From Acidimicrobiales bacterium (GTDB lineage Bacteria > Actinomycetota > Acidimicrobiia > Acidimicrobiales > SKKL01), in assembly GCA_034521975.1 (NCBI GenBank), contig JAXHLR010000002.1, forward strand, positions 62,001-126,000: DNA of 64,000 bases, in the 5' to 3' direction. Position 1 is the first letter of the stretch, and every line of letters begins with the position of its first letter. The position numbers were made by a program, and so were the translations under genes. The notes beneath the pieces are model-generated. The model did not search any database. It was not told the origin of the DNA and was given only the letters and a program-made list of their open reading frames with translations. Positions 2,044 through 9,298 of the stretch are shown here, piece by piece.

Positions 2044-2280
2044 CACCCCCTGACCTCCAGGAGATACACCTTGGCCTGCAAGTGCCTGCTGGGTTTGGAG
2101 CCTGAACGTGTCGCAACGTCAGAATCCCCCGCAGGCAGGCTCTTGCGCGGATGGTTCTGGCCAGCTCAAGCGGACTTGTGAAGTATCGGTGCTCAAGGCC
2201 CCCCGAATCTCGCACAGCGATGCACTTGACCCACGCGCGCCTTGACGCTGAGATTGGAGGCCATCGAAAGGCGGTAGGCG
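2044..2280. other. Intergenic gap after comEC
   Basis: This 237-bp stretch has no convincing gene or RNA. It looks less GC-rich than the flanking housekeeping genes and leads into an accessory block. I see no strong -10 box near 2281, so the promoter of the next gene is unassigned. Confidence 0.5.
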
Positions 2281-3915
2281 ATGGCGAGTTGGTGCAAGCG
2301 GCGGAGGCGCCGGCTGTGGGTCCCGGCTTTGGGTTCGATTGTTGGGCTGCTAGCCGGGATGGCTGCTGGCTTGATGCCGGCGATCCCAGCTGACGCAGTA
2401 CCGGCCGGTGAGCAGGTGAACGGACCGCCCGGTGAGCAGGTGAACGGACCGCCCACGGCATCGTCTACCCGGCCAACCGTAGCGTTTGTTGTTGACACGT
2501 CCGGGTCGATGTCGGGGTCGAGGCTCACCCAAGCGAAAGCCGCGCTACGGACCGGTATCGACGCTCTCGCGGGTGACCAGGCCGCAGGCCTGCGGTCCTT
2601 CGCTGGGGCATGCTCGTCGCGGGGCGCGGTCCGGACGCCGATCGGGACAGGTAATCGCGAGGCGATGCGGACCGCCTCCGACGCGCTGTTCGCGTCCGGA
2701 ACGACGCCGACGCCTGGCGCTCTGCTCGGCGCGGCCGACGAGTTGCGCGACGTCACCGGCCCCAAGATCGTGTTGCTCATCTCAGACGGGGCGTCCACCT
2801 GCGGTGACCCATGTCCAACGGCTGCATCCATCAAGGACGACCTCGGCGCTGACTTCGCTGCGGTTACTGTCGGATTTCGAGCCCCGGACTCGGCCGCCGA
2901 CGAGCTTCGTTGTATCGCAGAAGTCACAGGTGGGGAGTACTTCCCTGCCGACGACGAAGCCGGCCTCGCCGAGGCGATCGGTGCCGCAGTCGGTAGTTCC
3001 TCGGCCGCCTACGTCGCCGTAGGCGATTCCACTACCACTGGGTTCTCCGTCCCCACATGTTCGGAGGACCGGGAGATCTCGCCGTACGGCTGCGTAGGTG
3101 ACGACCCGCCGGCCCAGCCGTACCCCGAACGTGTCGCCGAAGCGGATGACCGCTTCGACGACCTGAACCGGGTCGGCATCTGGGGTTACACGATCGCTGA
3201 CGCAGTCGCCGCCCACGAGGCCGGCGAGAACGTGGAGGGTCCGTGGACACCACAGCTCACCGCAGCAGCGTCAGCGACGGAACTCGTCACTGTGTCCCTC
3301 GGCGCGAACGACATGGAGTTCAGTGACGTTGAGACCTGGTTGGCGCGGTGCGTGAGCATCCACCAGAAGGAATTCCTCGGCGTAACCTACGACGTCGATA
3401 TCAACGTGAACAACGAGTCGTGCGAGGCCGCCGCCGCCGCCCGCGTCGACGAGCTCGACGACGAGTTCGATGCCTTGTTCGATGCATTGTCTGACGCAGC
3501 GGATGGCGGCGTGGAGATCGTCGTCACGAAGTACTTCAATCCGTTCAACGACACAAAGAACGTGCGTTTCGCGCCGGACCGGTCCTGTGCGCTGTTGCAC
3601 GGCATCGGCGACCACGTCGTCGGTGCCCTGAACGACGAGCTCGACCGCCGGTCGCGTCAGGCTGGGTTCACCGTCGTCGACCTGTACCCGGCCTTCGAGG
3701 GCCACGGGGCAGGGTCGTCAGATTCGTATGTGTTCGGCTCGGACTGCGAGACCCTCGGTGCGGCGACAAGTATCGATGTCGACTTTGACTTCGGCTGGCC
3801 GCCGGTGAGCTTCGACGGTGATGACACCGTCGCCGAGATCCAAGTGCGGTTCGACCCTCACCCGAATGATAGGGGCACTGAGGCACAGGCAGACGCGATC
3901 CTGGAGGCGTTGTGA
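2281..3915 (+). CDS. Secreted von Willebrand factor A domain fused to SGNH/GDSL hydrolase
   Basis: This 544-residue protein starts with a Sec signal (KRRRRR, a hydrophobic core, cleavage near ADA at residue 39). Residues about 66-238 form a vWA domain with the metal-binding motif DTSGS (72-76), a central TPTPGA threonine motif and ISDG. Residues about 243-544 are an SGNH hydrolase: GDS with Ser250, GAND at 341-344 and a C-terminal DPHPNDRG block with Asp525 and His527. The predicted product is an exported esterase-like enzyme joined to an adhesion or metal-sensing module. An 8-residue tandem repeat (GEQVNGPP twice) links the signal to vWA. The substrate is unknown. The next gene overlaps by 4 bases. 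Confidence 0.85.
   Translation: MASWCKRRRRRLWVPALGSIVGLLAGMAAGLMPAIPADAVPAGEQVNGPPGEQVNGPPTASSTRPTVAFVVDTSGSMSGSRLTQAKAALRTGIDALAGDQAAGLRSFAGACSSRGAVRTPIGTGNREAMRTASDALFASGTTPTPGALLGAADELRDVTGPKIVLLISDGASTCGDPCPTAASIKDDLGADFAAVTVGFRAPDSAADELRCIAEVTGGEYFPADDEAGLAEAIGAAVGSSSAAYVAVGDSTTTGFSVPTCSEDREISPYGCVGDDPPAQPYPERVAEADDRFDDLNRVGIWGYTIADAVAAHEAGENVEGPWTPQLTAAASATELVTVSLGANDMEFSDVETWLARCVSIHQKEFLGVTYDVDINVNNESCEAAAAARVDELDDEFDALFDALSDAADGGVEIVVTKYFNPFNDTKNVRFAPDRSCALLHGIGDHVVGALNDELDRRSRQAGFTVVDLYPAFEGHGAGSSDSYVFGSDCETLGAATSIDVDFDFGWPPVSFDGDDTVAEIQVRFDPHPNDRGTEAQADAILEAL
2405..2452. repeat. 24-bp tandem direct repeat inside the vWA-SGNH gene
   Basis: Two exact 24-bp copies (2405-2428 and 2429-2452) lie end to end in frame and encode GEQVNGPP twice, between the signal peptide and the vWA domain. 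The copies are identical at DNA level, so the duplication is recent. Confidence 0.9.
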
Positions 3916-4622
3916 AGGGAACGAGTCGACTGCTGGCAACAGCCGCCGCGGTCGTCGGCGTCGCCATGACCGCTGGCTGTGGTGACGACACGACAGTGGA
4001 AACTGCGGCGACACTCGGGGAGCGGACGACACTCCCCGAAGTTGCCGAAGCCTGCGACGACGGCGATCCCACCGAACCCGGTGTCATTGAGGTGACTGGT
4101 GAGCTGCGCGACTCGAACACGACCGTGAACCTCGAGGACTGCGTCGTCCATCTCGGTAGCGGCGCTGACGTCACGTTGAACAATGTGACGGTGACCGGCG
4201 GAATCCTCAATCTGCATGACCGGGACACAGACCGCGCCCGCAACGTCGTGCGTCTCCAGCGGGTCACCTTCGACTCCCGCGCGGTGCTCATCGAGCTGAA
4301 CGACGCCGACGACGAGTTCCGGGCCGAACGCCTCGAAGCGACGGTCGCCGAAGGCTGGTCGTTGCAGGTCGCCGAGACCGACGATGACGCGAACGAGGGT
4401 GGATCGGTCCGTCTCGTGTCATCGACGGTGCTCGCCACGGGCACCGACGCGCCGGTGACCGTGACCGCCTCGGAGCATTCCGGTACCGTCGAGCTCGTGA
4501 ACACGACGCTCGACACGCGCGGGCTGCTCCTCGTGACCGCCGCCGACTGCTCCGCCCGGATCCGTGGCAACGCGCTGGACTGTTCGACCGACGCACTCGT
4601 CGCTGATGTCGCCGGTCCGTGA
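3912..4622 (+). CDS. Putative lipoprotein, beta-helix-like, unknown function
   Basis: This 236-residue product starts with a signal peptide ending in a lipobox (AMTAGC), so it is probably lipid-anchored at the membrane. The mature part has short repeating strands (VTLNNVTVTGG, VRLQRVTF, VRLVSSTV, VELVNTTL) typical of right-handed parallel beta-helix or pectate-lyase-like folds. No catalytic residues are recognisable. The GTG start overlaps the vWA-SGNH stop (GTGA), so the two are one transcript. Two Cys residues near the C-terminus could form a disulfide. Function is unknown. Confidence 0.72.
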   Translation: MKGTSRLLATAAAVVGVAMTAGCGDDTTVETAATLGERTTLPEVAEACDDGDPTEPGVIEVTGELRDSNTTVNLEDCVVHLGSGADVTLNNVTVTGGILNLHDRDTDRARNVVRLQRVTFDSRAVLIELNDADDEFRAERLEATVAEGWSLQVAETDDDANEGGSVRLVSSTVLATGTDAPVTVTASEHSGTVELVNTTLDTRGLLLVTAADCSARIRGNALDCSTDALVADVAGP

Positions 4623-4659
4623 CGACCGTGGTCGCCAGGGGCGGACGGGCACGGTCACA

Positions 4660-5094
4660 ATGGTGAACGCGGTGTTCAGAGCGGCCGCAGTGGCCGTGCT
4701 TGCCGCTGCCACCGCGTGCGGCGGCTCCGACACCCCCGACGTGGATGTGGACGCCGTGATGGCCGATGCGCTCGAAGCGCTGGAGCTCTCCGAGGTCGAC
4801 GACCCCGAGGAGGTGGTGTCGAAGGACATCTCCTACCTGGCCACGACCGGGGTCGCCGACGGTGACGTGGCCGACGTGGCCGACGACGCCCGCGACGCGC
4901 TCGACGCCGCCGGGTTCACCGTCGACGACCCAGTCGAGGTCCCTGGCGGTCTGTCCATCACCGCGTCTCGCGACGGCGTGACGGTGAGCGCGGCCGCCTA
5001 CGCCCAGGTGGGCGTCAACCCCGCCCCCGAGGGTTCCTCGTGGGTGCGGGTCCGGGCCGCCGACAACGAGACCAACCTCGCCTGGACGAGATGA
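4660..5094 (+). CDS. Small secreted, lipoprotein-like protein, unknown function
   Basis: This 144-residue protein has an N-terminal hydrophobic stretch followed by AAATAC, a plausible lipobox, then an acidic region rich in Asp and Val and a compact alpha/beta C-terminal part. I chose ATG 4660 because it puts the signal peptide at the N-terminus; an in-frame start at 4564 would add an unlikely leader overlapping the preceding gene. Together with the two genes upstream it forms a block of three exported proteins between comEC and folP. No family is recognised. Confidence 0.65.
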   Translation: MVNAVFRAAAVAVLAAATACGGSDTPDVDVDAVMADALEALELSEVDDPEEVVSKDISYLATTGVADGDVADVADDARDALDAAGFTVDDPVEVPGGLSITASRDGVTVSAAAYAQVGVNPAPEGSSWVRVRAADNETNLAWTR

Positions 5095-5203
5095 CCGAGC
5101 AATTCGCGACGTGCAAGCTCTCCGCCCTCCTCCGGGCTCCGGACAGGTTCGTAGCCTGACGCCAGGGCGGCGGCCGTTCTCCTCCGGTGTAGGTTCGGCA
5201 TCC

Positions 5204-7513: not shown

Positions 7514-9298
7514 ATGGATCTGTCGCGCATACGCAACCTCTCGATCATCGCCCACATCGATCACGGCAAGTCGACCCTCGCCGACCGGATCCTCGAGGTC
7601 TGTGGTGCGGTCGACCCTCGCGAGATGCGCGAGCAGTACCTGGATTCGATGGATCTCGAGCGCGAGCGCGGGATCACCATCAAGTTGCAGAGCGTCCGCC
7701 TCGACTACCGGGACCACGTCATCAACATGATCGACACCCCGGGCCACGTCGATTTCGGCTACGAGGTGTCGCGGTCGCTGGCCGCCTGCGAGGGCGTGAT
7801 CCTGCTCGTCGACGCCTCCCAGGGGATCGAGGCCCAGACCCTCGCCAACTGCCTGCTGGCCCTCGAGCACGACCTCGAGATCGTCCCCGCCCTCAACAAG
7901 ATCGATCTCCCCGCTGCCGATCCCGACCTCTACGCCGAGGAGATCGAGCGCGTGCTCGGCATCCCCGCCGAGGACGTGTTGCGCATCAGCGCCAAGACCG
8001 GCGACGGTGTCCCCGAGCTGCTCGACGCCGTGGTCGAGCGCGTGCCGCCCCCGGTCGGCGACGTCGATGCCCCGTTGCAGGGGCTCATCTTCGACTCGCA
8101 CTTCGACCAGTACCGCGGGGTGGTCTCGTCGATCCGGGTGGTCAACGGCCGTTTGATCACCGACACCAAGCTGCGGTTCATGCAGGCGGGCACCACCCAC
8201 GAGGTCAGCGAGGTCGGTGTCCGCCGTCCGATCCCCACCCCGGTGCGCGAGCTGGGCCCCGGCGAGGTCGGCTACCTGATCGCCGGCATCAAAGACGTCG
8301 GCGAGGCCCGGTCGGGCGAGACGGTCACCACCGCGGCGAACCCCGCGCCCGACCCGTTGGAGGGCTACCGCGAGCCCCAGCCCATGGTGTTCTGCGGGCT
8401 GTACCCCATCGAGGGCGACGACTTCTCCGACCTCCGCGAGGCGCTGGAGAAGTTGCGTCTCAACGATTCCAGCTTCACCTACCAGCCCGAGACGTCGGGC
8501 GCGCTCGGGTTCGGGTTCCGCTGCGGGTTCCTCGGCCTGTTGCACATGGAGATCGTGCGTGAGCGTCTCGAGCGCGAGTTCGACCTGTCGCTGATCGCCA
8601 CCGCTCCCTCGGTCGGCTACGAGGTCCACCTCACCGGTGGCGGCGTCACCGAGATCGACAACCCGAGCGAGATGCCGAGTCCGGGCGAGATCGAAGGGGT
8701 CGACGAGCCCTACTTCAAGGTCACGGTCCTCACGCCGTCCACCTACACCGGCACCGTGATGGATCTGTGCCAGTCGAAGCGGGGCGCCATGCAGTCCATG
8801 GAGTACCTGTCACCCGAACGGCTCGAGCTGGTCTATGAGATCCCCCTCGCCGAGGTGGTGATGGACTTCTTCGACCAGCTCAAGAGTCGCACCCAGGGCT
8901 ATGCCAGTCTCGACTACGAGCCGATCGGGTACCGCCGGTCCAACCTGTCCAAGGTCGACATCCTCCTGCAGGGCGAACCGGTCGACGCCTTCAGCATGAT
9001 CGTGCACCGCGACTCGGCCTACGAGTACGGGCGCAAGATGTGCGACAAGCTCAAGGAGCTGATCCCGCGCCAGCAGTACGACGTGCCGATCCAGGCCGCC
9101 ATCGGTGGCAAGATCATCGCCCGCCAGACGGTCAAGGCCTACCGCAAGGACGTCACCGCCAAGCTCTACGGCGGCGACGTCACCCGCAAGAACAAGCTGT
9201 TGCAGAAGCAGAAGGCGGGCAAGAAGAAGATGAAGTCCATCGGCCGGGTCGAGATCCCCCAGGAGGCGTTCATCTCCGCCCTCAAGCTCGACGACTGA
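7514..9298 (+). CDS. lepA: Elongation factor 4 (LepA), ribosomal back-translocase GTPase
   Basis: This 594-residue translational GTPase contains AHIDHGKST (G1), DTPGHVDF (G3) and NKIDLP (G4), the EF-G-like domains II, III and V, and the LepA-specific C-terminal domain ending with [18 protein letters not shown]. LepA acts on stalled or mistranslocated ribosomes. ATG 7514 fits the family start; an upstream in-frame start at 7436 would add 26 atypical residues. A possible -10 (TATCGT, 7497-7502) lies 11 nt upstream. Confidence 0.97.

Follow-up and report, generated by a model that had tools for sequence, protein, structure and literature searches.

We find that the window, the whole 64,000-nucleotide stretch of Acidimicrobiales DNA that was analysed, on balance probably carries a cassette of three genes, gained by horizontal transfer, that centres on an exported serine esterase. 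In this reading, the vWA domain of the enzyme (gene A) is its aiming module and the products of genes B and C are its partners. The features of the locus are as follows.

2281..3915, forward strand: gene A, exported vWA-SGNH protein, 544 aa, ATG start (ORF, Pfam)
2281..2397, forward strand: signal peptide of gene A (sequence inspection)
2400..2447, forward strand: 24-bp tandem duplication, giving the linker GEQVNGPP twice, copies 96% identical
2479..2967, forward strand: vWA domain of gene A, residues 67-229 (Pfam, alignment)
2998..3912, forward strand: SGNH hydrolase domain of gene A (Pfam, alignment)
3912..4622, forward strand: gene B, 236 aa, GTG start, probable lipoprotein (Cys23), predicted parallel beta-helix
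4660..5094, forward strand: gene C, 144 aa, small probable lipoprotein (Cys20)
2044..5165, no strand: inserted stretch from comEC to a DHPS-like gene, ends approximate

Open reading frames and Pfam matches agree with the preliminary description, in which a signal peptide, a vWA domain and an SGNH hydrolase were joined in one protein. By inspection, the signal peptide has a basic n-region, a hydrophobic core and an AxA-like end at about residue 39. The GEQVNGPP duplication in the linker has a recent look. The GTG start of gene B at 3912 lies within the stop of gene A (GTGA), giving an overlap of 4 bp, and in the homologous genes of a second genome, G021, the start of B is likewise placed inside the stop of A, as ATGA, again with a 4-bp overlap. 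The beta-helix-like lipoprotein described earlier as overlapping gene A corresponds to gene B, a probable beta-helix lipoprotein, and the further small exported protein downstream corresponds to gene C, a 144-aa lipoprotein-like ORF. The start of gene C is best read at 4660 rather than at 4564 (176 aa), because a lipoprotein-like N-terminus is found there and the 4564 reading runs into gene B.

The vWA domain matches PF00092 over residues 67-229 with 41.5 bits, above the cut-off of 23.8. Its metal site (MIDAS), earlier called intact, is complete, with D72-x-S74-x-S76, T142 and D169 all present. When plasmids were searched by tblastn, seven Rhodococcus records were closest to this domain (53.6-55.9% identity; 54-57% over all comparisons made with these proteins), and the next group reached at most 36%. 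All seven matches lie N-terminal to a cutinase, in genes annotated 'cutinase family protein', and Pfam recovered vWA followed by cutinase in each of the four proteins scanned. Cutinases are a family of lipid and polyester esterases. The MIDAS residues are invariant in four aligned Rhodococcus vWA-cutinase proteins, and Cys111, 174, 178 and 211 of the window domain also occur in the vWA-cutinases. In a tree that also took in 22 other vWA domains, the window domain and four cutinase-linked ones formed one group (94/88, just below the strict mark), and none of 500 label shuffles was equally clustered. The best vWA matches in 296 genomes of the phylum reached at most 44% identity, and the ones examined carry a C-terminal membrane anchor in place of an esterase. 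Because its nearest kin sit N-terminal to cutinases, which have an unrelated esterase fold, the vWA subtype of gene A is, as judged from these comparisons, one that travels with secreted serine esterases.

Genes B and C are absent from the neighbourhoods of the four vWA-cutinases that were read. The proteins of the Rhodococcus plasmid loci L052-L055 are exported vWA-cutinases whose C-terminal region looks rich in beta structure and whose conserved tail has FGS at its end; strains CX-1 and JCM 15477 each have two vWA-cutinase copies, on separate plasmids. Loci L036 and L041 gave long vWA matches that extended in the direction of the SGNH start and were considered as further vWA-SGNH fusions, but were rejected as vWA-beta-membrane proteins. 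The literature searches yielded no paper on a vWA-SGNH or vWA-cutinase fusion. The earlier statement that no system of this make-up has been described therefore holds for the papers searched, but not for public records, where vWA-esterase (cutinase) proteins are present.

The SGNH domain of gene A matches PF13472 (clan CL0264) with an E-value of 1.6e-7 and 32.5 bits, which falls slightly short of the 32.9 cut-off, and its homologue in G021 reaches 33.0 bits, above the cut-off. Comparison with ordinary SGNH proteins by hhalign gave 96.5%, with an alignment ending ahead of the His block. Ser250 (GDS), Gly302, Asn343 (GxND) and His527 are invariant across five sequences, namely the window protein, that of G021 and three ordinary secreted SGNH proteins. 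This upholds Ser250, Asn343 and His527 as first listed; the loss of catalytic residues in homologues, named at the time as a refuting observation, was not seen. The fourth residue on that list, Asp525, is present, but its catalytic role is doubtful: in F524-D525-P526-H527 it stands at -2 from His527, not at -3 as in DxxH, and it is common to the two cassette proteins alone, the position being non-acidic in the three ordinary SGNH proteins.

The nearest solved chains in a profile search were the phospholipase A1 of S. albidoflavus, SaPLA1 (4hyq), and the lipase of S. rimosus, SrL (5mal). Both enzymes use Ser-His dyads, in which the imidazole is supported by Ser216 (SaPLA1) or Ser214 (SrL), each at -2 from the His (PMC10779480). 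By residue spacing, Asp525 matches this -2 Ser position of the Streptomyces lipases. As far as these relatives indicate, the SGNH domain of gene A is most likely of the Ser-His dyad type. Its presumed substrate would most likely be a lipid or glycan ester. A single-sequence model of the domain (pLDDT 41) was too poor for a 3D reading of fold or active site.

Among 99 relatives, G021, which belongs to a different family of the same order as the window genome, alone gave a strong match to gene A, and this match was limited to the SGNH half (60% identical). Gene A of G021 (L002:406-2412) is followed by B (53% identical) and C (35% identical) in the same order as in the window. The two loci are unrelated; the G021 cassette lies on contig C225, and the comEC of G021 on C104. 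Window-to-G021 alignment scores were 954 for the SGNH half, 571 for B and 184 for C, where shuffled sequences reached no more than 55, 84 and 59, respectively, and both SGNH and B have diverged less at first and second codon positions than at third positions. The first 363 residues of G021 gene A show no kinship with the vWA domain (best BLASTP E 0.058). The first SGNH strand, YVAVGDSTTTGFSVPTC, is the exact point at which the two proteins begin to resemble each other, and there the alignment becomes near-perfect. The N-terminal domain of the G021 protein (~300 residues, L002:406-1494) had no match in Pfam, PDB, plasmids or the genomes of 98 relatives. Since SGNH-B-C is retained in G021 behind an N-terminus of unrelated sequence, the conserved travelling unit is, on this sequence evidence, SGNH-B-C, with an exchangeable N-terminus on gene A. 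A search across genomes for the architecture first described thus recovered SGNH-B-C in G021, but not the vWA domain at its front.

The cassette is rare. In the order, 2 of 397 genomes carried gene B. For the SGNH half the counts were 2 of 395 genomes in the class and 1 of 396 in the phylum, the latter at E 1e-8. No carriers besides G000 and G021 were found in these samples of order, class and phylum (~400 genomes each), and scans of genome contigs added none, a weak negative as exact short peptides were required. The cassette is missing from a genome of the same genus and from nearly the whole sampled order. With just two carrier genomes, its conservation is read from one comparison. A lone homologue of gene C (33% identical) occurs in G003:C148 (L051, reverse complement 7879-8370) without A or B, adjoining a PIN-domain-like ORF and a PhoH-like gene. 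Because gene C occurs alone in G003, is only 35% identical between the two cassettes and has a third-position GC (0.90) unlike that of A and B, its link to the cassette appears weak.

B and C are two protein families without a Pfam or NCBIfam model. No sequence match to gene B passed the threshold in Pfam, NCBIfam, PHROGs or PDB, and gene C had no Pfam match above the cut-off. A single-sequence model of the gene B protein (pLDDT 66, pTM 0.66) consists nearly entirely of short strands. VIA-align matched this model to parallel beta-helix proteins (Z 11-14, rmsd mostly 3-4.5 Å over 160-200 residues), and the best Foldseek match (E 0.034) was not significant. The model points to a probable beta-helix lipoprotein, which we do not call a lyase. 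Both genes persist in G021, where the vWA domain is replaced, which argues that they belong with, and serve, the hydrolase half rather than the vWA domain.

The cassette was earlier placed as an insertion within the com/hol region, and relatives without A-B-C bear this out. The order comEC, DHPS-like gene, holA, rpsT and lepA is common to G001 (same genus as the window genome) and to G002 and G003 (same family), all of which are without the cassette. In G001, the alignments of comEC and of the DHPS-like gene end 67 bp apart; the corresponding stretch of the window runs from 2044 to about 5165. A and B have a third-position GC of 0.73-0.80, compared with 0.90-0.94 in comEC, holA and lepA, and by this measure they look acquired. 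Gene C, at 0.90, has the third-position GC of the flanks, unlike A and B, though the three genes are linked in G021, and its composition is of no help in deciding on acquisition.

In G002 and G003 (L025, L026) a transporter-like gene, by eye of the major-facilitator type, lies on the opposite strand in the gap between comEC and the DHPS-like gene. The gap accordingly takes varied insertions and may be an insertion hot spot. No transposase and no flanking repeats of note were found around the inserted stretch, and the 251 bp upstream of the cassette are single-copy in the genome, with no trace of a mobile element. A phage or plasmid origin was rejected, as SGNH and B had no match in plasmids or viral contigs; a P0001 search gave just one weak vWA match, in one phage record. 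Membership in a defence system was likewise rejected, there being no PADLOC match.

We propose that gene A is exported via Sec and that its SGNH domain would cut ester bonds, with Ser250 and His527 as catalytic residues and Asn343 and Gly302 as the oxyanion hole. The vWA domain, as an exchangeable module of gene A, may fix the enzyme to its target, a surface or polymer, through its metal site. Gene B would be translated in coupling with A and is probably a lipid-anchored beta-helix, and gene C a small, presumably lipidated protein. Both would accompany the SGNH half as its constant partners, most likely to hold or assist the enzyme on the external side of the membrane or to bind its glycan or lipid substrate, possibly in contact with A. 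Adhesion plus hydrolysis, as first suggested, is still the best reading, but the vWA domain is not a fixed part of it, as G021 keeps SGNH-B-C without it.

Other readings were weighed against this one. Gene A could serve cell-wall upkeep, stripping O-acetyl or other esters from the cell's own wall glycans while the beta-helix of B binds the glycan chain. The predicted fold of B resembles glycan-active beta-helix proteins, and SGNH hydrolases are in wide use on carbohydrate esters (PMC9487903). We nevertheless regard a wall role as unlikely: it would be odd for a cassette so rarely found in the sampled order, even among close relatives, the closest solved enzymes are lipases or phospholipases, and cutinase, with which this vWA type is also paired, is a lipid or polyester esterase. 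An exchangeable N-terminus, a conserved enzymatic C-terminus, an overlapping downstream gene and a patchy spread also recall the layout of polymorphic toxins. Gene A might then be a Sec-exported antibacterial phospholipase whose delivery module can be exchanged, with B, C or both acting as immunity lipoproteins. This is quite improbable, considering that PADLOC gave no match and Pfam and NCBIfam no trafficking domain, that B, unlike the majority of immunity genes, is large and hardly less conserved than the enzyme (53 vs 60%), and that the vWA-cutinases have no partner gene. A related version, to which we assign a similarly low probability, has a Sec-exported, toxin-like esterase whose SGNH domain attacks the lipids of neighbours, whose N-terminal module picks the target and whose producer is protected by B, possibly with C.

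It is also conceivable that the three genes are mere neighbours without a joint function, their arrangement carried along by transfer. The solitary C of G003 and the existence of two known carriers only would fit, but the gene order, the strand and the overlap of 4 bp are the same in two families whose cassettes lie at unrelated loci, and the codon-position pattern of B and SGNH also speaks against it, making such a coincidence very unlikely. Least credible to us is a sensing or assembly role led by the vWA domain, in which it docks A to B in a surface complex and hydrolysis is secondary. vWA domains often mediate metal-dependent protein binding and the metal site here is complete; B and C are, however, kept without the vWA domain in G021, so that B is not there for it.

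One vWA subtype is joined to two unrelated secreted esterase folds (SGNH and cutinase), and one esterase cassette (SGNH-B-C) to two unrelated N-termini. These pairings point to a role of the vWA domain in Actinomycetota as an aiming module that different extracellular esterases can reuse, comparable to the carbohydrate-binding modules of glycoside hydrolases, with possible relevance to lipid or polyester breakdown.

The vWA-SGNH cassette is a new arrangement of domains that are themselves known. G021 gene A shares the SGNH half and the homologous B and C genes, but carries an unrelated N-terminal domain without a Pfam match where the window protein has vWA. The Streptomyces SGNH lipases (4hyq, 5mal) are secreted and similar by profile match and by the Ser, Asn and His blocks, but are single-domain enzymes with Ser at the -2 position, where gene A has Asp. 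The S. rimosus lipase has three disulfides, and the SGNH domain of gene A six conserved Cys. Relative to ordinary secreted SGNH proteins, gene A has two inserted loops. The actinomycete signal-vWA-beta domain-membrane proteins (L033, L034, L040) have the next nearest vWA domains (~35-44% identical), but are membrane-anchored and without an esterase domain. Closest in plan are the Rhodococcus cutinase family proteins (e.g. WP_197486222.1, WP_113683975.1 and WP_338481327.1), which are likewise exported, with a C-terminal serine esterase and an N-terminal vWA domain of the same subtype, including the same four Cys and metal site. They differ in having a cutinase (alpha/beta hydrolase) instead of SGNH, an additional C-terminal domain and no adjoining B or C.
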